Shown piece after piece: positions 35,890-64,000 of a stretch of 64,000 nt of DNA. Position numbers and translations under genes: made by a program. Positions within the stretch are counted from its first letter, which is position 1, and every line of letters starts with the position of its first letter. This stretch comes from Hydrogenivirga caldilitoris. Its GTDB lineage: Bacteria; Aquificota; Aquificia; Aquificales; Aquificaceae. The stretch is taken from assembly GCF_003664005.1 (NCBI RefSeq), contig NZ_RCCJ01000001.1, positions 558,001 through 622,000 of the forward strand. The letters are read 5' to 3'. The notes below the pieces were generated by a model, which made no database searches, was not told the DNA's origin, and was given only the letters and a program-made list of their open reading frames with translations.

Positions 35890-36428
35890 TCTACGTAGAG
35901 TGAGAGTGGAGGTATTTTGAACTTCTTTTGCAGCTCTCTCTTTACAAGCTCTGCGAACACCTCTTTATTGTCCCTAAACTCTCTGTATTTACGTCCAATG
36001 CTGTCCCTCTCTTCCTTGCTTAGCTGTTTCCAGAGTTCCTTCATTATTCTGCTCTCTATCTCTTTTAGAACCTTCTGGGCGTCCTCTTCGCTTTCTGGCT
36101 TTTTTATTTCAAAATTCACAAGCTCTTTAACCTTCTTTACTTTTTCTTCAAACCTGTGCTCCCAGTCTATACGGACCTTTTGGGCTTCAATCCTTAGAAA
36201 ATTCTCATAAACATCCATAATGCTCCTGTAGCATAGGAAGACCGGGTGTTTGCTTCTTCTCCTTGGGTTTAAAGCTGTGTAGCACTTTTCAATTCCTTCC
36301 TTTACGATGCTCTCAGGTATGCCAAGCTCCTCAAGGAAGTTAAGGAAGAGTTTTTCTCTCGGTGACAGGAAGAAAACACCACCTTTGAACCTGAGTATAA
36401 ACTCTTCAAGCGCCCTGGAGTAACTCAT
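35886..36428 (-). CDS. Hypothetical charged protein before acpS
   Basis: 180 residues; not recognised. It starts 4 bases inside the acpS end and is thus the last gene of the flgHIJ-acpS run. Seen: an N-terminal helical part with FFLSPREKLFLNFLEELGIP, a cysteine-containing stretch NPRRRSKHPVFLCYRSI, and a charged helical C-terminal half ending FKIPPLSLYVD. No signal peptide, membrane segment or known catalytic motif. The regular frame and tight coupling make it a real gene. Confidence 0.6.
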   Translation of the reverse strand: MSYSRALEEFILRFKGGVFFLSPREKLFLNFLEELGIPESIVKEGIEKCYTALNPRRRSKHPVFLCYRSIMDVYENFLRIEAQKVRIDWEHRFEEKVKKVKELVNFEIKKPESEEDAQKVLKEIESRIMKELWKQLSKEERDSIGRKYREFRDNKEVFAELVKRELQKKFKIPPLSLYVD

Positions 36429-36784
36429 TTTATGCAGGCAACCGCAACTGAGTAATCCCTTTCGTGGGATAGAGAAACGAGAAGCTCTCTCCCTTTGAGA
36501 AATTCTTTGGCTTCCTCCCTGTGTATGATAACCCTTGCGGGTTTTCCTCTGTCACCCAGAACTTCAATCTCCTTAAACCTAAGCAGAACTCCAAACTCCA
36601 TATAGAAGGCTTTCAGCACAGCTTCCTTGCACGCCCACCTTGCTGCAAGACAGGGTACCCTTGCCTCTTGAGAGTTGCAGTAATCAAGCTCTTTATCGGT
36701 GTATATCCTGACCAGAAACCGCTCTCCAAACTTTTCAATAGCTTTTTCAATTCTTTCGTTCTTAACTATATCTACACCTATCAT
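36425..36784 (-). CDS. acpS: Holo-[acyl-carrier-protein] synthase
   Basis: 119 residues. Transfers 4'-phosphopantetheine from CoA to ACP. Seen: the N-terminal GVDIVKNERIEKAI with the metal-binding aspartate, RIYTDKELDYC, AARWACKEAVLKAF with the catalytic glutamate, and VSLSHERDYSVAVA. Its substrate AcpP is encoded 3 kb away on the other strand. The start overlaps the flgJ-like stop by 4 bases. Confidence 0.95.
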   Translation of the reverse strand: MIGVDIVKNERIEKAIEKFGERFLVRIYTDKELDYCNSQEARVPCLAARWACKEAVLKAFYMEFGVLLRFKEIEVLGDRGKPARVIIHREEAKEFLKGRELLVSLSHERDYSVAVACIK

Positions 36785-37479
36785 TTACCAGCGGACAATT
36801 TTATCACCTTCAGGAGTTTATCTACATAAGTGCGGGTCTCTTCCGGTAAAAGGTTAAGGTCTTGCAAAACTTTTCCCGCTCCGAGCCTGTCCAGGTTCCC
36901 CTCTCCCCAGTTGTAAGCTATAAGTACAAGAATCCAGTTCTTATATTTACCGTAAAGATTCTTCAGGTGTCTCACTGCGGCACGCGTTGATTTTAAGGGA
37001 TCAAACCTCTCATCAACATCTTTATCCACCTTCAACCCAAGCTCCTTTGCAGTTTCGGGCATAAGTTGCCACATACCCGCTGCCCCTTTTGGAGATACAG
37101 CCTTAACTTCGTAGGAGCTTTCTATCTCTGGAATCACTGAGAGCCACCCTGGAAGTCCCTCCTCCTTTAAGACCCTTTTAACCATGAGTCTCAGCTCCTC
37201 TTTGCTCTCAGGTTGGCGGGCGTTCTTCTCGTAAGTTTCTACGATAAACTTCGCTATTCCAACACCTCCAGCTTCCGCGAGTTTTTTGCTGACCCCCTCC
37301 AGAAACATGTCGTGATAGAACCTCTGGTATATGCTCTTGTCTTTGAGAACAGACCTGAAGGCTTCCTTCAAAACTTGCTTTATAAGTATGGATTCAAACT
37401 CCTTTGCAACGCTCTTGAGGTCCTTTTTTACTAATTCTCTGTAGTTATAAGAAGGCTCTGAGAATGTAACCCTGTTCAT
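36781..37479 (-). CDS. flgJ: FlgJ-like rod protein with lytic transglycosylase domain
   Basis: 232 residues, two domains. Residues 15-85 match the FlgJ rod-binding domain (SVAKEFESILIKQVLKEAF, then FLEGVSKKLAEAGGVGIA). Residues about 100-225 are an SLT-type transglycosylase: IPEIESSYEVKAVSPKGAAGMWQLMP with E120 as expected acid, and LVLIAYNWGEGNLDRLG. In enteric FlgJ the second domain is a different peptidoglycan hydrolase (glucosaminidase), so this is a domain swap. It presumably clears peptidoglycan for the rod. It follows flgI and flgH. Confidence 0.88.
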   Translation of the reverse strand: MNRVTFSEPSYNYRELVKKDLKSVAKEFESILIKQVLKEAFRSVLKDKSIYQRFYHDMFLEGVSKKLAEAGGVGIAKFIVETYEKNARQPESKEELRLMVKRVLKEEGLPGWLSVIPEIESSYEVKAVSPKGAAGMWQLMPETAKELGLKVDKDVDERFDPLKSTRAAVRHLKNLYGKYKNWILVLIAYNWGEGNLDRLGAGKVLQDLNLLPEETRTYVDKLLKVIKLSAGK

Positions 37480-38564
37480 AACACTTCCAATTTAGCCTTT
37501 AGAGCCCCGGCTTCTTTTATAGCTTGAAGGACAGATATTATTTCCCTGGGTGTGGCACCTATCTTGTTAAGAGAGTTTACCAGCTCCTGGACGGTTGCTC
37601 CCTTTATAGGGACAAGCCTTCTGTCCTCCTCAACCACCTCTATCTCGGTTCTCGGGACAACCTTTGTCTCACCCCCTGAAAAGGGAGGTGGTTGGGATAC
37701 TTCCGGCATTTCCTTGACCTTCACGACCAGACTCCCAACTGCCACTGCAACAGGGTTTATTCTGACTCCTCCCCCGAGCACTATCGTTCCGGACCTGCTG
37801 TCTATAACAACCTTTGCAACTTGAGATGTGCTTACCTCAAGGTTCTCAACTTCAGCAAGGAAATCAACCGGATTTAAACCCTCGGGCACGTTTACCTTTA
37901 CTGTCGCGCTGTCAACAGCTGTAGCTATGGGTGCGCCAAACCTCTTGTTTATGACATCCTGTACCCTTTTGGCTGTCGTAAAATCAGGTATATCAAGGAT
38001 TATGTTTATCTCTGTTACCTTCATATCAAAGGGGAGGTCCCTTTCAAGTACTGCCCCGTTCGGTATTCTTCCAACGGTTGGCACGTTTTTAACCTGTGTT
38101 GCCCCCCTTCCCCTCGCTTCATACCCTCCGACTATCAACTGCCCCTGAGCAAGGGCGTATATGTTACCATCAGGTCCTCTCAAAGGAGTCAGAAGTAGCG
38201 TTCCTCCTTCCAGACTCTTGGCATCACCAATTGAGGATACGTCCACATCAACCCTCATGCCAGCCTTGGCGTAAGGGGGGAGTTTTGCGGTGACCATTAC
38301 CGCTGCTACGTTCTTTACAGTTATTCTGTTAGGGTCAACAACTATGCCCATCTTCTGAAGGGCGTTTGCCAAGCTCTTTACTGTAAACTGAGTTGCCTTT
38401 CCGTCTCCGGTTCCCCTGAGTCCCACTACCAACCCGTAGCCTTGGAGGTAGTTAATCCTGTTGCCCTCTATGGTTGCTATATCCTTTATCCTCTCGGAAA
38501 AGGTAACGGATATAAGGAGCAGTATCAGAAGGGGAATATTAAGGCAAATATCCTTGCAAGCCAT
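37476..38564 (-). CDS. flgI: Flagellar P-ring protein FlgI
   Basis: 362 residues. Builds the P ring around the flagellar rod in the periplasm. Seen: signal segment ICLNIPLLILLLISVTFS, then RIKDIATIEGNRINYLQGYGLVVGLRGTGDG, ITVKNVAAVMVTAKLPPYAKAGMRVDVDVSSIGDAKSLEGG, GNIYALAQGQLIVGG and the end with VQELVNSLNKIGATPREIISVLQAI. Everything expected is present. It begins 40 bases inside flgH. Confidence 0.97.
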   Translation of the reverse strand: MACKDICLNIPLLILLLISVTFSERIKDIATIEGNRINYLQGYGLVVGLRGTGDGKATQFTVKSLANALQKMGIVVDPNRITVKNVAAVMVTAKLPPYAKAGMRVDVDVSSIGDAKSLEGGTLLLTPLRGPDGNIYALAQGQLIVGGYEARGRGATQVKNVPTVGRIPNGAVLERDLPFDMKVTEINIILDIPDFTTAKRVQDVINKRFGAPIATAVDSATVKVNVPEGLNPVDFLAEVENLEVSTSQVAKVVIDSRSGTIVLGGGVRINPVAVAVGSLVVKVKEMPEVSQPPPFSGGETKVVPRTEIEVVEEDRRLVPIKGATVQELVNSLNKIGATPREIISVLQAIKEAGALKAKLEVL

Positions 38565-39202
38565 CCGGGCTTACCTCCCTCAGCCATGTAACCCTTACCG
38601 TCTAAAAAGACCTCCATGTTGGCAATTTTCTCGCTGGTTACCGTATTATTGCTGTCTATATCCTCCGGTCTTATTATGCCCCTCAGGACAAACTCTCTCT
38701 TCATACCGTTCACCACTATATACTTCTTCGCTTCTATTAACATCGTCCTGTTCGGGTAAACTTTTACCACTCTGCCTGCGAGTCTTGTAGTCAGTACACC
38801 CTGCTGTTGCACCTTGCTTGAAGCTTTAGTATCAAACTTACCCTCTGCCTGGCTACCTAAGTTGGCAAGTGTGTTCTGGGGCACACCAAAGAAGGAGCTA
38901 ATAGCGTTGGAGAACGCTGTAGACCTACCTGCCTGATTGGATAAACTCTCCACGGCGTTCATACTCTCCACCACGTATATAAAAATGAGGTCTCCCGGTT
39001 TTGCTGCCCTGTTTTCCCCGTAGAGGTCAACCCATCCTCCCTTTGAAAGCAAGCTACCGCGCATCTGTTTCTCCTTATACTCTTCTTGAGGGAAGGGGTT
39101 TTCCCGTTCATAGGTTGCCAGGTCCCTTGGTTTTTCAGAGCAGGATAAAAGGAGGGTTGTGAAAACCACAATAAATGAAGCCAAAAAAGCCCCCATTATC
39201 AC
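38525..39202 (-). CDS. flgH: Flagellar L-ring protein FlgH
   Basis: 225 residues. Outer-membrane lipoprotein ring around the rod. Seen: a lipoprotein signal ending VFTTLLLSC, an early GSLLSKGGWVDLYGENRAAKPGDLIFIYV, TRLAGRVVKVYPNRTMLIEAKK, and VNGMKREFVLRGIIRPEDIDSNNTVTSEKIANMEV, the FlgH core. The start is unsure: GTG 39202 or ATG 39196; neither has a binding site, and a TATATT lies a few bases upstream. The C-terminus is hydrophobic and overlaps flgI. Confidence 0.93.
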   Translation of the reverse strand: MIMGAFLASFIVVFTTLLLSCSEKPRDLATYERENPFPQEEYKEKQMRGSLLSKGGWVDLYGENRAAKPGDLIFIYVVESMNAVESLSNQAGRSTAFSNAISSFFGVPQNTLANLGSQAEGKFDTKASSKVQQQGVLTTRLAGRVVKVYPNRTMLIEAKKYIVVNGMKREFVLRGIIRPEDIDSNNTVTSEKIANMEVFLDGKGYMAEGGKPGWLARIFALIFPF

Positions 39203-57746: not shown

Positions 57747-58063
57747 TAATTAGGTTCAAGGTGTGGCTGGAATTGGACGGAGAACCGATAATAAGCGAGG
57801 GTAAGTACCAACTCCTCAAAGCGATAGAGGAAGAGGGTTCTATATTGAAAGCGGCAGAGAAACTCGGACTTAGCTACAAAAGGGCTCACAGCCAGATAAA
57901 GGCTATGGAAGAGAGACTCGGTAAGCCTGTGGTTAAACGAAGGAAGAAGAAAGGCGCTGAGCTTACGAAATTAGGTAGGAAGCTTATCTCTGAGTATGAA
58001 AGAGTCCTTAAAGAGTTTGAACGGCTCGTATCAGGCCTCCCCCCTCTCAAACTTAAGGAGTAA
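57743..58063 (+). CDS. ModE-type DNA-binding protein without molybdate-binding domains
   Basis: 106 residues from a TTG start. It is the winged helix-turn-helix part of ModE/LysR-like regulators: FKVWLELDGEPIISEGKYQLLKAI begins it, with GSILKAAEKLGLSYKRAHSQIKAMEERLG as the recognition region and KKKGAELTKLGRKLI as wing. Full ModE has a C-terminal pair of Mop domains; these are absent. It may act alone or be controlled by a separate Mop protein. The 24-bp palindrome at modA is a candidate target. The end overlaps ogt convergently by 33 bases. Confidence 0.85.
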   Translation: MIIRFKVWLELDGEPIISEGKYQLLKAIEEEGSILKAAEKLGLSYKRAHSQIKAMEERLGKPVVKRRKKKGAELTKLGRKLISEYERVLKEFERLVSGLPPLKLKE

Positions 58064-58483
58064 GGCTTTCAGCTCTATGCCGTAGGAGAAGCCCCCCAGA
58101 CCAAATTTTGAAACCACCCTGTGACAGGGGACTATTATGGGAAACCTGTTTATCTTCATACAGTAAGCTACAAACCTCGGATGTTTCCCTGTAAGCTTTC
58201 CAAGTTCACCGTAAGTTATGGTTCTTCCAAAGGGCACTTCTCTTCTTAAAACTCTGTAAACCTCAACAACCTCCTCGGTATAACCGGTGAGGTCAAGTCT
58301 ATCAAACTCTATTTCCGCATCACCCCTTTTGCTTATATACTTATCAAAAATTTTGGAAAGAATGGTGTTTCCTTTTGAAGGAGCTACCCTACCAGAGTTA
58401 AAGGTGCATCCCCTTACTAAGGGACCTTCTAAATGAACTTCAAGGTAAAGGTTTCTGGTAATTTTCACACTAAAACTTGACAT
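58031..58483 (-). CDS. ogt: Methylated-DNA--protein-cysteine methyltransferase
   Basis: 150 residues from the ATG at 58483. Repairs O6-alkylguanine by moving the alkyl group to its own cysteine, once per molecule. Seen: PFGRTITYGELGKLTGKHPRFVAYCMKINRFPIIVPCHRVV around the active C120 (positions 84-123), with PCHRV as hallmark and YCMKINRFP at the arginine/asparagine finger; a GLGGFSYGIELKALLL end. The usual GxxxAAR stretch before it is altered to HPRFVAYCM, as in some thermophiles. Confidence 0.93.
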   Translation of the reverse strand: MSSFSVKITRNLYLEVHLEGPLVRGCTFNSGRVAPSKGNTILSKIFDKYISKRGDAEIEFDRLDLTGYTEEVVEVYRVLRREVPFGRTITYGELGKLTGKHPRFVAYCMKINRFPIIVPCHRVVSKFGLGGFSYGIELKALLLKFERGEA

Positions 58484-58493
58484 TTTGAAATTG

Positions 58494-58499
58494 AATATA
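58494..58499 (-). promoter_or_regulatory. -10 element of ogt
   Basis: TATATT on the minus strand ends 10 bases before the ogt ATG at 58483; no ribosome binding site is seen between them. Confidence 0.35.
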
Positions 58500-58516
58500 T
58501 ACAAGAGGAGGTTAAA

Positions 58517-58549
58517 ATGAAAAGTAAGAAAGCTCTAAAGGAGGGGTAA
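58517..58549 (+). CDS. Ten-codon leader ORF before the csgG-like gene
   Basis: ATG to TAA encodes MKSKKALKEG. It has its own strong binding site AGAGGAGG (58504-58511), and its last codons contain AAGGAGGGG, the binding site of the next gene, which starts 2 bases after the stop. The start region resembles the next gene's start (MRSKKI), as if duplicated. It may set translation of the cassette. Confidence 0.45.
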   Translation: MKSKKALKEG

Positions 58550-58551
58550 AA

Positions 58552-59775
58552 ATGAGGTCCAAGAAGATTTTAGTGGCAACTCTGGGAGTCATGCCTGTTA
58601 TTCTCGCCTGTGGAGCAAAAACGTCACAGATTGACCCAACTGCGTATCCAATAACACCTTTAGACCAGGTTAAGGTTGAAATACCGGACGCCTGCCGGCT
58701 GGCTTACGAAAACGCTGTTCCGAAGGTTGCCGTGGTAGATTTTGCTAACAACAGTACCTTTGACCTTGCAAACGCTATACAGACAGCTTCCGCGGGAACA
58801 GAGTCAAGAAAGTACGTGAGAGGAGGAGCATGGGGTGTCGGTGTAGTTGGTCCAGGAGTTATAGGAGTTGGGGGAGTGTCCGCAGGAGCAAGCAAAAGGG
58901 ACTGGAGAACCCAGTCTGAAACCATATCAAGGCAGATAAACGCAAAGATAGGAGAGAGTGTAGCTGAAGCTGTGGTCAGCGAAGTGGCAAGCATAGGAGG
59001 GATGAAGGTTTACACCCGAAGGGACTTGCAAAAGGTGCTTGAAGAGCAAAAGCTCCAGATGTCAGGGCTTATTGACCCGAACACCGCCGTCCAGATCGGT
59101 CAGCTCGCCGGTGTGAAGTACATAATTACAGGGGCGGTTAATAACGTAAACCTCAAGTGGGTGTCCCTTGAGGAAGCCAAGGGGGCTGCAAAGGGACTCT
59201 TTGGAACATGGGGTTCTGTCCTTGCGGCTGGTGCGGCTACACAGGAGGGATGGAACGTTATCGTTGACGTGGTGATAAAGGTGATAGATACCGAAACTGG
59301 TGAAGTCGTCCTATCTAAAACCGTTTCGGGAAGGGAGGTTATGGGCAAAACTCCCCAGTTCAGCTATGACTCTATAATAGGAGGAATTAAAAAGGCTGTT
59401 GCGGAGGCTGTTGAAGATATCAGACCTGAAATATCTAAACTCTTCCCGCTCAGAGGGTACATAATCCAGCTCAGGACGGCGCCCGATAAGAGTAAGAGGT
59501 ACGCCCTTATAAATGTTGGAGCCCAGCAGGGTGTGAAATCTGGGCAGGAGTTTTATGTTATAGACTTCCAGGCTGTTCAGGACCCGATAAGCGGAAGAAC
59601 CACCTGTGACCAGGTCAAGCTTCCTGTGTCCCTTGTGGTTTCCAACCAGATACAGACAGACAAAGCCTGGGCTGTACTGGAGGGAGACAAGGCTCAGATT
59701 ATGAGGGTGAAGCTGGGGCAAATTGTTGAAAGGAAACCCCTTGAGGGGGGAAGCGGTCTTAAGAAGCTATTCTGA
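58552..59775 (+). CDS. CsgG-like outer-membrane lipoprotein
   Basis: 407 residues. Signal with lipobox VILAC, C20. Residues about 55-310 resemble CsgG: PKVAVVDFANNSTF, KIGESVAEAVVSEVASIGGMKVYTRRDLQKVLEEQK as the helix-strand at about 129-164, GQLAGVKYIITGAV, VIDTETGEVVLSKTVSGRE. The C-terminal part with YALINVGAQQGVKSGQEFYVID resembles the FlgT C-terminal domain. CsgG forms the curli export pore; others of the superfamily are assembly factors. It heads a four-gene operon 11 bases before the lectin-domain gene. No curli subunit genes are present, so the cargo or role is open. Confidence 0.82.
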   Translation: MRSKKILVATLGVMPVILACGAKTSQIDPTAYPITPLDQVKVEIPDACRLAYENAVPKVAVVDFANNSTFDLANAIQTASAGTESRKYVRGGAWGVGVVGPGVIGVGGVSAGASKRDWRTQSETISRQINAKIGESVAEAVVSEVASIGGMKVYTRRDLQKVLEEQKLQMSGLIDPNTAVQIGQLAGVKYIITGAVNNVNLKWVSLEEAKGAAKGLFGTWGSVLAAGAATQEGWNVIVDVVIKVIDTETGEVVLSKTVSGREVMGKTPQFSYDSIIGGIKKAVAEAVEDIRPEISKLFPLRGYIIQLRTAPDKSKRYALINVGAQQGVKSGQEFYVIDFQAVQDPISGRTTCDQVKLPVSLVVSNQIQTDKAWAVLEGDKAQIMRVKLGQIVERKPLEGGSGLKKLF

Positions 59776-59786
59776 GGGAGGAAGTC

Positions 59787-62159
59787 ATGAGGCTGTTCTT
59801 AATCGTTCTTACCCTGATGGGTCTTTCCTTTTCTGCTCCTCCTTTTATACCGCCCGGATGGCACAACCCCCAAAATCCTCATTACGGTGGTCAGGGACAA
59901 GTTGCGGCAACAGAGTTCACTAGTTTGAGTAATCCACCATTTACTCTTATTGTTTTTACTGGTCCGGTAAACTGGGCTACAGCAGCAGCGGCATGCAGAT
60001 CAAAAGGTTTAGAAATAGCCTCTATACATAACCTTGAAGAGAATATGAAGGTGCTTGCCTTACTCAAAAGTGTGTCCTGGCAACCGGGTGTGTGGAAGGG
60101 AGCATGGATAGGTCTGACCGACGATGGATCTGAAGGCAGGTGGAGATGGGCAGATGGTTCTCCCGTTGACTTTCTAAACTTTGGACCTGGAGAACCTAAC
60201 GGTGGAACTTATGAAAACTATGGAGCTATTGAGCTTGCGAGAGCGGGAAGACCGGACGGATGGTGGAACGATGCCAATGTAAACGAGAAGTACGGAGCTG
60301 TGGTTTGTAGAGGAGGTGCTGTTGCTTCGGTTTCTGAGTTACCTTCCTTATCTTCAACTACAAGTGGATTTCAAGGTGGGGATAAAGTTCTACTTTTAGT
60401 GGATAGCACAACCTGTCCTGCTGGGGATGTGGTAAAAGACCTTAGCATAATCAAGGGAAGCTATGAGTGTGTTGATTTTCAAGGGAAACGCTGGATAAAG
60501 CCTTTTGATGCAGGTTTAAATCTTTACAAACCACTAAACATATCTGGAGACTTTTCTCTTGAATTTGAGTTCTATACCTTCGAACCCGGATGCCCTTTTG
60601 TAGCGGTTAACCTTTTCCCCGAGAGGACCTTGAAGGAAGCTCAGGAAGGTAATCAATATGCTCTTGGGGGAGATACCTTCATAGTTTTGAAGGGGAGCTG
60701 TGACAGGTTTGAAGCAGGTGTCTCCTCCAGCCCCCGTGGCAGCAGGGATGCTTTTTACGAATACAAGAGGAACATACAGAAAGGAGCCATACATTCCGTT
60801 GCCTTAGCCGTCAGGAATGGGAAGGCTATTATATACCTGGATGGTAACAAGATAGCATCGGAACCCTTTACACCGACCGAGCCAATAAGAGGTATAGGCT
60901 TTTACTTCTACAAACACTATGAAACGGACAAGCCTTACGGTGATTTTCCTGCACTCATAGGCAACGTAAAGCTCGCTCTCTATACTGGAGCCCCTCAGCA
61001 ACCCGCCCAGATGCAGCCTCCTCCTCTATCACCTCCTCAACCGCAGGTCTCCTTACCTAAACCTCAGCCACCGCCTCCTCCGGCTCCGATACAGCCCTTT
61101 AAGAAACAGGTTAAGTGTATAGAATCCGTGGGAGTGGGTGAGGCGTCGGTGATAGGTGGTGATAGGGCGAGTGCCAAGGCTGAAGCTCTTGCGAGGGCAA
61201 AGTGGGACGCTATAGAGAAGGCTCTCGGTGTAACGACGAGCGTGAAGACCATAGTCCAGAACTTCCAACTACTGGACGAGGTGATAAAGAACCAGGTAGG
61301 GGGATTCATAAAGGATGTCAAAGTGCTTCAGGAAGAGAACTTTGCCGATATGGTAAGGGTTAAGGTGAGGGGCTGTGTCTATCCCGAAGAGGCTGAAAGA
61401 GCCTTAAGCTTGATATCAAGCGATACCGCGTTCAGTGTGATGGTTATAGTAAAGAACCCAAGCGGTGTAGAGCTTGATGAGATGAATCCGGTCACCACGG
61501 AGCTGGTTAATATTCTCAACCAGCAGGGCTTCAAGGTCTACGATTTTGCGGGGAACCCCAATGTGAACCCCTACGATGTGGAGCAGATAGTGGCACAGAA
61601 GAGATTCATACTTCTGAGGGCTTATATGTCAAGAGCTCTCTCTGGGGCTATGGTTGTCGGCAAGGTAGAGCTGGTTCCTTCAACCCAGACCGGTCAGGAT
61701 ATAGGTTACGGAATAAGGGCGACCTTCAACGTTGTCACGGCAAGGCTCAACTACTACCTCCTTGCCAGGGACGCAGACGGGCTGAGGATAGTGGCTTCGG
61801 GCTCTCTGTCGGCTATGGGAAGAGCACCCAACCTTCAAGATGCCAATTACAAGGCTATGGAGGCTCTCGCCCAGAAGCTTGGAAGCGACATAATGGGAAA
61901 GATAGAGCGCTACAGGGCATCTAAGAAGAAGGTCGTCACGGTCGTTGTGAAGGGCGTAAAGAGTACCAGCCAGAACTTTGAGATAAAGGAGAAACTCCAG
62001 AGAGTTCCATGGGTTGAGTCCGTTGAAGACCTCGGACTCGGTAAGTTTAAGGTTACGTACCTTGAAAACACGGTTTATCTTGCCAACGCGATAGAGAGGA
62101 TGCCCGAGCTTAAGCTTATAAGATTCTCACCTACTGAGGTGGAGGCGAGCTCACTATGA
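59787..62159 (+). CDS. Exported C-type lectin, LamG-like and LPP20/FlgT-like multidomain protein
   Basis: 790 residues. Signal peptide RLFLIVLTLMGLSFSA. Residues about 48-176 form a C-type lectin domain: C70, WIGL (107-110), RWRWADG, EPN (136-138), WND (160-162) and C174. EPN plus WND is the calcium site pattern of mannose-type lectins. Residues about 225-400 look like a concanavalin/LamG domain (HSVALAVRNGKAIIYLDG). A proline-rich linker spans 403-437. Residues 440-535 match LPP20/FlgT-N (VGVGEASVIGGDRASAKAEALARAKWDAIEKALGV region). The rest is periplasmic alpha/beta sequence. I infer a surface or periplasmic carbohydrate-binding protein tied to the CsgG-like lipoprotein. Confidence 0.8.
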   Translation: MRLFLIVLTLMGLSFSAPPFIPPGWHNPQNPHYGGQGQVAATEFTSLSNPPFTLIVFTGPVNWATAAAACRSKGLEIASIHNLEENMKVLALLKSVSWQPGVWKGAWIGLTDDGSEGRWRWADGSPVDFLNFGPGEPNGGTYENYGAIELARAGRPDGWWNDANVNEKYGAVVCRGGAVASVSELPSLSSTTSGFQGGDKVLLLVDSTTCPAGDVVKDLSIIKGSYECVDFQGKRWIKPFDAGLNLYKPLNISGDFSLEFEFYTFEPGCPFVAVNLFPERTLKEAQEGNQYALGGDTFIVLKGSCDRFEAGVSSSPRGSRDAFYEYKRNIQKGAIHSVALAVRNGKAIIYLDGNKIASEPFTPTEPIRGIGFYFYKHYETDKPYGDFPALIGNVKLALYTGAPQQPAQMQPPPLSPPQPQVSLPKPQPPPPPAPIQPFKKQVKCIESVGVGEASVIGGDRASAKAEALARAKWDAIEKALGVTTSVKTIVQNFQLLDEVIKNQVGGFIKDVKVLQEENFADMVRVKVRGCVYPEEAERALSLISSDTAFSVMVIVKNPSGVELDEMNPVTTELVNILNQQGFKVYDFAGNPNVNPYDVEQIVAQKRFILLRAYMSRALSGAMVVGKVELVPSTQTGQDIGYGIRATFNVVTARLNYYLLARDADGLRIVASGSLSAMGRAPNLQDANYKAMEALAQKLGSDIMGKIERYRASKKKVVTVVVKGVKSTSQNFEIKEKLQRVPWVESVEDLGLGKFKVTYLENTVYLANAIERMPELKLIRFSPTEVEASSL

Positions 62160-62779
62160 GACATCTGCTCGTGCCCCTCCTTTTGCCCCTTTTACTCTTT
62201 GTATCCTGCGGACCAAAAACAGAAAAGGTAAAGACCGAACCCAGAAAGGAAGAACAGCTCCAGAGGGCGGAGAGAGCTTTTGAAGAGCTTGAGAGAGAAG
62301 CTCCAAAACCTGCCAAGGAGCTCACCCTTGAAGAGGGTAGAACTCCTCAGTTAAGGGAGGAACCCCAGAGGTTAGAAAAAGCGCCCATTGAGATTGCAAA
62401 GAGAGAGGAACCGAGAACCAAGTATCCTCTCAAGGATGGATTGCCCGTATGGGTTCACAATCCCAACTACGGCGGAGTTCTCGGAGGTGTGGGGATAGCT
62501 AAAAAGATACCGGGCAAGGGTTACGCCGAGCAGAAGAGACTTGCCAAGCAGATAGCCCTTGCAGACCTTGCTAAGCAGATAGAGATAATAGTGAAGTCGG
62601 AGCTTACGAAGGTTGAAATAAACGTTGACACCCAAACCCTTCAATACTACAAGAAGACCTTTAACTCACTCTCAGAGCAGGAGGTTAGGGAGGTCCTTAT
62701 CAAGAATGCAACCATAGAAGATGAATGGATTGACCCAAAGACAGGAGACCTGTACGTGTGGGTTGTTTTGAAAAGATAA
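62156..62779 (+). CDS. LPP20-family lipoprotein
   Basis: 207 residues. Lipoprotein signal with LLFVSC, C18. Residues 20-90 are a charged, proline-containing spacer. The C-terminal domain (about 95-207) is LPP20-like: LPVWVHNPNYGGVLGGVGIAKKIPGKGYAEQKRLAKQIALADLAKQIEIIVKSEL at about 97-150, with VGIA and ALADLAKQI as its hallmarks. The same fold occurs in the FlgT N-terminus and in the preceding gene. It overlaps that gene by 4 bases (ATGA). Confidence 0.85.
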   Translation: MRHLLVPLLLPLLLFVSCGPKTEKVKTEPRKEEQLQRAERAFEELEREAPKPAKELTLEEGRTPQLREEPQRLEKAPIEIAKREEPRTKYPLKDGLPVWVHNPNYGGVLGGVGIAKKIPGKGYAEQKRLAKQIALADLAKQIEIIVKSELTKVEINVDTQTLQYYKKTFNSLSEQEVREVLIKNATIEDEWIDPKTGDLYVWVVLKR

Positions 62780-62794
62780 GATTGGAGGTGAGAT

Positions 62795-63361
62795 ATGAAG
62801 CGATTCATCTTGGCTGGAGGGTTAATCTTGTCAACCCAGCTCTATGCTGTTGAGCTTGGTGTGAAGCTTGGGAACGCTCGGATAAACTGGAGCGGAGGCA
62901 ATGATAGCACAACGCTGGAGGGATACGTGGCTTTTTATGGAGAGTATCTTTTCCCGGTCACCCCTGTCCTGAGTGTAGGACCGAATGTAGAGCTTGGTTA
63001 CGGGAAAAAGAGTATAGGTACCTTCTACTGTGCCGGCTACGGTACATGTTCCGTTGACCTCACTTACACCACCCTTGAGCTCAATGCAAAGGCTGTTCTG
63101 AGTGTAGCTCCAGTTTTAGACCTCTACGGTGGGGCTGGTATATCCTCAAACAGGTTTGGACTTGATGCAAAGGACCCCGTTACGGACGCTCCTGTTGGAA
63201 CCATAGGTAACGAGAATGGAGGAGGAGCTCAGGCTTTTGCAGGTGCCCAGTTGAAGGTCGGTAACTTCGGGGCGGGGCTTGAATACAAGTACAAGGCTGT
63301 TGACACGGAATCTGTGGATTCTGTGGACGTGGTAGCCCTTACCCTCTTTGTCCGATTCTGA
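62795..63361 (+). CDS. Small outer-membrane beta-barrel protein
   Basis: 188 residues. Signal peptide KRFILAGGLILSTQLYA, then alternating beta strands (VELGVKLGNARINW, LEGYVAFYGEYLF, VGPNVELGYG, LDLYGGAGISSNRF, GNFGAGLEYKYKAV) ending in VALTLFVRF, an outer-membrane insertion signal. It suggests an eight-stranded barrel of the OmpA/OmpW or OprF-N kind. Two cysteines in CAGYGTC could form a loop disulfide. It is the fourth gene of the cassette, 15 bases after the lipoprotein gene, with a GGAGGT site. Confidence 0.78.
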   Translation: MKRFILAGGLILSTQLYAVELGVKLGNARINWSGGNDSTTLEGYVAFYGEYLFPVTPVLSVGPNVELGYGKKSIGTFYCAGYGTCSVDLTYTTLELNAKAVLSVAPVLDLYGGAGISSNRFGLDAKDPVTDAPVGTIGNENGGGAQAFAGAQLKVGNFGAGLEYKYKAVDTESVDSVDVVALTLFVRF

Positions 63362-63414: not shown

Positions 63415-64000
63415 ATGAATAAACTTGCCCTTGAAACCTTAACCGAGCAGAGGGAGAGTCCCGAATACCTTCAGATAAGCTGGGCTGCAGCTATGACTCT
63501 GGGACTCATACCGGGTCAGTTTTATAGAAATACAAAACTGAGCTGTATAAACACGCTCCTCACTTATCCTTCCGGATGCCATGCTACCTGTGCTTACTGT
63601 GGACTTCAGAAGGCGAGAGACATGGAGTACTCCAAGAAGAACTTTATAAGGGTGGAGTGGCCTACCGTAAAGCTTGAAGACATAATAGAGAGAACTAAAC
63701 AGGTTGGACATGCGGAACGCCTGTGTATATCCCAGATAACCCACCCCAGGTCTATAAGGGACACCAAGTACGTTCTGAGAAAGGTTATAGAGGAGCTAGG
63801 AGACCAGCTATTTGTCTCTATACTCATGAACGCCACCGGACAAACCTACGAGGATATAGAGGACTACAAGAAGCTCGGTGCTGATACATTGACGGTTGCC
63901 CTTGATGCAGCAACACCTGATATATTTGATAAGCTTAGAGGCAAACCCATGAACAGCCCCCATAGGTGGGACACCTACTGGAAGGTTCTTGAGTGGTGTG
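63415..64000 (+). CDS. Radical SAM protein, BioB/lipoyl-synthase-like (3' end outside window)
   Basis: The frame runs open to the window end; 195 codons are visible. GGGAGG lies before the ATG. Seen: the radical SAM cluster motif in PSGCHATCAYCGLQ (C-X3-C-X2-C) and later LGADTLTVALDAATPDIFDKLRG, a barrel stretch found in the biotin-synthase-like superfamily. The function cannot be settled from the fragment; lipoyl synthase of the split LipS type or another BioB relative is possible. Confidence 0.78.
   Translation, partial: MNKLALETLTEQRESPEYLQISWAAAMTLGLIPGQFYRNTKLSCINTLLTYPSGCHATCAYCGLQKARDMEYSKKNFIRVEWPTVKLEDIIERTKQVGHAERLCISQITHPRSIRDTKYVLRKVIEELGDQLFVSILMNATGQTYEDIEDYKKLGADTLTVALDAATPDIFDKLRGKPMNSPHRWDTYWKVLEWC

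Follow-up and report, generated by a model that had tools for sequence, protein, structure and literature searches.

Proteins of the FlgT, FlgP, and LPP20 types have been described chiefly in flagellar motors and as outer membrane (OM) antigens of Campylobacterota, and to our knowledge no function has been assigned to many LPP20 and CsgG-like lipoproteins. Here we describe a cassette of such genes (A to D) and a partner operon (E to G) in the genome of Hydrogenivirga caldilitoris. The cassette lies in a 64,000-nucleotide stretch that was analyzed in full (the window), and it resembles several described systems in part. Like the Vibrio H-ring of FlgT, FlgO, and FlgP, it groups several genes for OM lipoproteins and LPP20- or SHS2-type parts, and FlgT is the top fold match of both A and B (8Z5N and 3W1E). 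In FlgT the N, middle, and C domains lie in one protein, whereas here A has the middle and C-like domains and B the N and middle-like ones. Unlike the H-ring, the cassette adds lectin, LamG, and PAN heads and a lytic transglycosylase, and has no tie to flagellar gene presence. The SHS2 domain of B aligns without gaps to FlgP of the Campylobacter basal disk (B-core profile against C. jejuni FlgP, PDB 9HMF, E value 6.5e-4; PMC12222027), but sits inside a larger secreted protein with a putative binding head.

CsgG of curli systems shares a CsgG domain and a lipobox with A, but A lacks space for the second membrane hairpin and has an extra FlgT_C-like domain, and no curli genes lie nearby. The core of A also resembles PelC, an oligomeric OM lipoprotein of the PelBC exporter, but A has additional domains, and the locus showed no Pel genes. 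About 260 residues of B (449–706) match Leptospira LipL46 (1.6e-8), but at 33.7 bits against an NF033164 cut-off of 400. E matches the Helicobacter pylori Lpp20 structure (5OK8, 7.5e-8), and C and E both belong to the LPP20 family, but the gene company here is an MltC-like transglycosylase and A-B. By their defining tests, the cassette is not curli, FlgT, LpoB, or LipL46. In its proposed action it would resemble OM rings of the FlgP/FlgT type, and matrix-binding adhesins and holdfast anchors (HfaA/B/D) can be compared with it by analogy only.

Gene content and domain relationships

The four ORFs are all on the plus strand, at 58552–59775 (A), 59787–62159 (B), 62156–62779 (C), and 62795–63361 (D), and the tight packing described in an earlier note on this DNA (gaps of 11, −4, and 15 nt) was reproduced. 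Empty-site comparison (below) sets the left boundary at a methylguanine-DNA-methyltransferase-like gene (58031–58504, minus strand) and, together with Pfam, the right boundary at a radical-SAM gene (63415–63999, plus strand) that continues past the window end. Elsewhere in the window, at 36425–39202 and distant from the cassette, are flgH, flgI, and a FlgJ-like SLT/rod-binding gene.

A is predicted to be a 407-aa OM lipoprotein (lipobox ILAC/G) with a CsgG/FlgT-middle fold and a FlgT_C-like end. Its CsgG domain is above the Pfam cut-off (2e-13), and its C-terminal FlgT_C match is below it (0.0015). No match to the A sequence was found in the PDB at E ≤ 1, so its relationships rest on Pfam and fold. 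For the AlphaFold model of A, which has modest confidence (62), the top Foldseek matches were to FlgT (7e-10 and 1e-9; 8Z5N and 3W1E are among the FlgT entries for A and B), followed by PelC, GNA1162, the CsgG pre-pore, and LpoB, although TM-scores were low in the fold comparisons of both the A and the B models.

B is an exported 790-aa protein that has a signal peptide without a lipobox and combines an exchangeable N-terminal head with a conserved C-terminal core. The core (residues 438–790; 61098–62156, plus strand) comprises a FlgP/FlgT_N-like SHS2 domain, a FlgT-middle/CsgG/LptE-like domain, and a C-terminal alpha/beta domain. These 353 residues are 75%–87% identical within the genus, and Cys444 and Cys530 are invariant, a pair consistent with a disulfide outside the cytoplasm. 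Only the core is modeled well by AlphaFold (mostly 70–88, compared to 52 overall), and Foldseek placed FlgT first for the B model (3W1E, 3e-9), followed by CsgG, HpaA, and LptE. In FlgP, an insert between the SHS2 helix and the second strand is the ring-forming hairpin (PMC12222027). The SHS2 domain of B aligns to FlgP ungapped across both the helix and the ring-hairpin stretch, where AlphaFold draws short helices with low confidence, and appears from this alignment to carry a FlgP-type ring-forming insert. A search of plasmids with headless B returned no matches.

C is an LPP20-family OM lipoprotein of 207 aa (lipobox FVSC/G), assigned from its orthologues and from Pfam LPP20 (6.3e-9, 36.6 bits, above the cut-off of 25.9). 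D is a small OM beta-barrel protein of 188 aa (Pfam OMP_b-brl, 8e-7).

These assignments bear out the earlier reading, in which A was a CsgG-like lipoprotein with a FlgT-C-like end, B an exported C-type lectin protein with an FlgT-N/LPP20 domain, C an LPP20 lipoprotein, and D a small barrel. FlgT_N has no Pfam match in B itself and is found only in B orthologues (1.8e-5, 0.0014, 0.0019, and 0.0059), always under the curated cut-off. Together with the B-core match to FlgP and the B-model match to FlgT, these orthologue matches uphold the claim that three of the proteins share FlgT-type domains, at the level of fold. Profile comparison of A with the B core gave no direct similarity, and the sharing is therefore a fold-level statement only. 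The CsgG and FlgT relationships themselves are upheld by both sequence and predicted fold.

Distribution of the conserved unit

Occurrence of the unit was scored on B in 136 Aquificota genomes, 23 of which were positive with the B-core profile. Strong orthologues among 121 Aquificota genomes numbered 15 for A, 16 for C, and 17 for the B core. A, B, and C are adjacent in the window's genus and in a second genus, g9. Genomes of Hydrogenothermaceae keep A next to B, and in several of them C lies beside the pair in divergent orientation. The unit is kept together across Aquificaceae and Hydrogenothermaceae, but not with D as a fixed fourth member: in several members of the genus D does not follow C, and three cassette-less genomes have D elsewhere, and this patchy distribution makes it a genus-level neighbor and no part of the conserved unit. 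In three members of the window's genus (G061, G105, and G116), the methyltransferase-like gene directly abuts the radical-SAM gene with nothing between them. This clean empty site indicates that A-B-C, the conserved unit, is acquired or lost as one block.

Two variants were seen in other loci. In genus g12 (L056, L059, L060, L062, and L122), a thioredoxin-like protein and a protein of 134–137 aa are conserved beside the cassette, and this pair may serve the conserved cysteines. One 2.4-Mb MAG (G118; L059, L064) has two copies of an A-B-E block; it is 7% contaminated, and the copies could represent two strains.

Exchangeable heads of protein B

The head of B in the window has two modules. The first is a C-type lectin domain (residues 61–174; 59967–60308, plus strand) identified by Pfam Lectin_C (3.3e-10, 41.1 bits, above the cut-off of 22.6), by a fold match to CD23, and by the motif EPN...E...WND, which we take to be a site for calcium and a mannose-type sugar and which is kept in all five lectin-headed B orthologues. 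The second (residues 191–400; 60357–60986, plus strand) is LamG-like by homology to the heads found in G044, in G054, and elsewhere in the genus of the window; matches of B orthologues to Laminin_G are weak. It is 51%–65% identical within the genus, compared to 75%–87% for the core. By composition (45% Pro, 21% Gln), a proline-rich linker follows (60987–61097, plus strand), and such a linker separates head and core in the headed B proteins of the genus.

Heads differ among genomes. Most genus members, as well as G044 and G054, have a LamG-like head only, G102 and G066 have a lectin only, G122 has a lectin with PAN, and G083 has a lectin with PAN and DUF4114. B of G121 (L118:2481–4808) has a further N-terminal segment ahead of the LamG-like module, and B is headless in g9 and most of g12. 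In a tree of the core, lectin-headed G102 is sister to LamG-headed G113, lectin-headed G066 is sister to LamG-headed G124, and LamG-headed G078 groups with G083 and G122, with support for these pairings that is partly moderate and in some cases weak. Because sister pairs bear different heads, heads have been exchanged; a shuffle test of heads on the tree shows only that head types cluster. B is therefore a conserved FlgT/FlgP-like base with a fast-changing, exchangeable N-terminal head that has changed several times on the core tree. The head may be periplasmic, since no conserved barrel and no known route would carry B over the OM.

A partner locus with LPP20 lipoproteins and a transglycosylase

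An operon of three genes, E-F-G, is located 211 kb from the cassette in the same genome (G000:C1:830911–833085; L069:8911–11085). E is an LPP20 lipoprotein of 202 aa (44.6 bits against the LPP20 cut-off of 25.9) and F is a short LPP20 lipoprotein. G has an SLT catalytic domain (8.6e-25) and is closest to MltC (1e-47), but its 163 bits are below the NF008670 equivalog cut-off of 375, and by this comparison it is MltC-like rather than MltC proper. Its N-terminus (TRRELLTLLL) looks Tat-like.

The two loci are joined in other genomes. Homologs of E-F-G occur in one locus with A-B in g9 genomes and in G044, and E comes after B in other Hydrogenothermaceae. Among the 121 genomes, B occurs with E in 16 of 17 (P = 2e-15) and with G in 14 of 17 (P = 9e-12), and E occurs with G (P = 9e-12), although these P values ignore phylogeny and the co-occurrence of E and G is partly phylogenetic. 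E and G are also missing from three cassette-less members of the window's genus and five cassette-less members of g9. Related loci differ in content. In G045 and G047, proteins of 1,324–1,355 aa with Ig-like, PKD, and CarboxypepD_reg domains directly follow the MltC-like transglycosylase (L063:10564–14631 and L125:6362–10336). In family f4 (L124 from G037, L126 from G022), a transglycosylase and an LPP20 protein occur with two larger LPP20-like proteins; in L124 one of the larger proteins has PEGA, and FecR and DUF6175 proteins follow.

A candidate promoter motif shared with polysaccharide-linked genes

A putative operator, GGTAATTTTCAC (reverse GTGAAAATTACC), is located at 58457–58468 (no strand assigned), with a TATATA box 27 nt downstream. 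The sequence, found 49–91 nt upstream of A, is invariant in all nine cassette-bearing genus genomes and absent from the empty site of the three without the cassette. Part of this conservation could be coding, since the motif and the start of the divergent methyltransferase-like gene overlap. A promoter-like TTGAAT-16-TAAAAT element with TTGAATATA (58491–58518, plus strand) was identified by a scan, which alone was not above chance, and by conservation in six genus members. A 10-codon ORF just upstream of A was considered and rejected, as it corresponds to the conserved promoter sequence TAAAATGAA.

Upstream of E, GTGAAATTTCAC or a close variant is present in all seven genus genomes read, in several of them ~22 nt before TATAAT. 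Across 254 kb of this genome, a relaxed form of the 12-bp motif occurs four times, always in intergenic DNA and each time with a −10-like box at 20–30 nt, compared to none in 40 sets of randomized sequence. Two of the sites are those of A and E. The third is upstream of a manC-type gene for the GDP-mannose enzyme mannose-1-phosphate guanylyltransferase/mannose-6-phosphate isomerase (L070:16557–17960; motif at L070:16380, 23 nt before TATAAT). The fourth is upstream of a gene for a regulator with PilZ, AAA+ (sigma-54 type), and HTH_8 domains (region L142:6304–11773; G000:C1:306303–311772), in which the PilZ motifs RLAPR and DISLFG are visible. Its neighbors encode a cellulose-synthase-like GT2-PilZ protein, BcsS, and a GDP-mannose-dehydratase-like sugar epimerase. 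The regulator (G000:C1:307514–308938) is a candidate for acting on the GTGAAAWTTNMC sites, and the common motif makes autoregulation possible.

A further 400 kb contained a single motif, which was intragenic and lacked a −10 box. This result indicates a low background for the motif but adds no regulon gene. In the 654 kb sampled in total, only two sites occur beyond A and E. As the A and E loci were chosen for other reasons, the unbiased evidence consists of two sites in ~620 kb, both linked to polysaccharide. With the lectin motif and possible co-regulation with the GDP-mannose gene, the earlier suggestion of surface-carbohydrate binding is plausible.

A proposed OM scaffold and its alternatives

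We tentatively favor an account in which A, B, C, E, F, and G form one OM-associated oligomeric scaffold that shows exchangeable carbohydrate-binding heads and holds exopolysaccharide or attaches cells. A, C, E, and F would be lipid-anchored in the OM, and the B core would pack through its SHS2 domain into a ring of FlgT/FlgP/CsgG-type domains. The proline-rich linker would hold out a head (C-type lectin, LamG-like, or PAN) that binds carbohydrate, and G would locally clear peptidoglycan for assembly. The scaffold would then tether exopolysaccharide or fix the cell to sugars, and would be turned on together with polysaccharide synthesis by the PilZ (c-di-GMP type) AAA+ regulator. The fuller version of this proposal is possible but more doubtful: a non-flagellar relative of the flagellar OM ring or disk, serving as a modular platform for the display of glycan-binding heads, with the wall opened by its own transglycosylase and with c-di-GMP switching it together with exopolysaccharide.

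Several of the same features could instead describe a periplasmic cell-wall machine, in which an LpoB-like A, a lectin-headed B on peptidoglycan glycans, and the MltC-like G would remodel the wall or tether the OM to it, with no surface role. EPN-type lectins of the REG3 family can bind peptidoglycan sugars, G is a lytic transglycosylase, the linker could span the wall, and B has no recognizable export route. A also has LpoB fold matches and weak sequence similarity to LpoB, at 19.3 bits against the TIGR02722 cut-off of 110.55. However, heads vary among sibling species, which would not be expected for a conserved wall target. The LamG and PAN heads resemble extracellular modules, as do the giant Ig-like proteins encoded at related loci, and the motif ties the genes to polysaccharide genes. 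We consider this explanation unlikely.

A CsgG/PelC-like exporter that sends B or polysaccharide through the OM would account for the CsgG domain of A and for its CsgG and PelC fold matches. It could also account for a Gly-rich insert (residues ~83–118) that is present in 16 of 16 true A proteins, is missing from three divergent A' proteins, and possibly lines a channel; it presumably lies close to the position of the CsgG constriction loop. However, the model of A has a strand to residue 265 and a helix from 272, with only about six residues at the site of the second CsgG membrane hairpin (the position of the first is predicted to be helical, with low confidence). For the export raised in the earlier note, this lack of space speaks against a CsgG-type pore. 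The mismatch with curli operons that the note described does hold, as Pfam searches of the window and related loci found no CsgA/B/E/F-type neighbors. We consider an exporter very unlikely.

Similarly unlikely is an accessory ring or disk of the flagellar motor, comparable to the H-ring of Vibrio (FlgO/P/T) or the FlgP disk of Campylobacter. In its favor, the solved structures nearest in fold are FlgT and FlgP, and most hosts are flagellated. However, FlgI is no more common with the cassette (14 of 17 genomes) than without it (81 of 104; P = 1). G061 (window's genus, 99% complete) encodes both FlgI and FliG and lacks the cassette, and G091 (a MAG, 89% complete) carries the cassette and lacks both flagellar genes. 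In the loci read, A-B-C is not within flagellar clusters.

Under the favored scaffold account, the ring-type folds are known and their stand-alone, head-swapping use is new; none of the papers searched combines LPP20 and CsgG. The host phylum is early-branching and thermophilic, and little is known about how its members attach. A, B, C, E, F, and G provide a testable set of partners, linked by a candidate promoter motif to polysaccharide synthesis. The cassette suggests a further use of the same ring-forming parts, as an independent envelope device whose sugar-binding heads can be exchanged, and the different heads across species point to what is probably a previously undescribed way to grip surface or matrix sugars.
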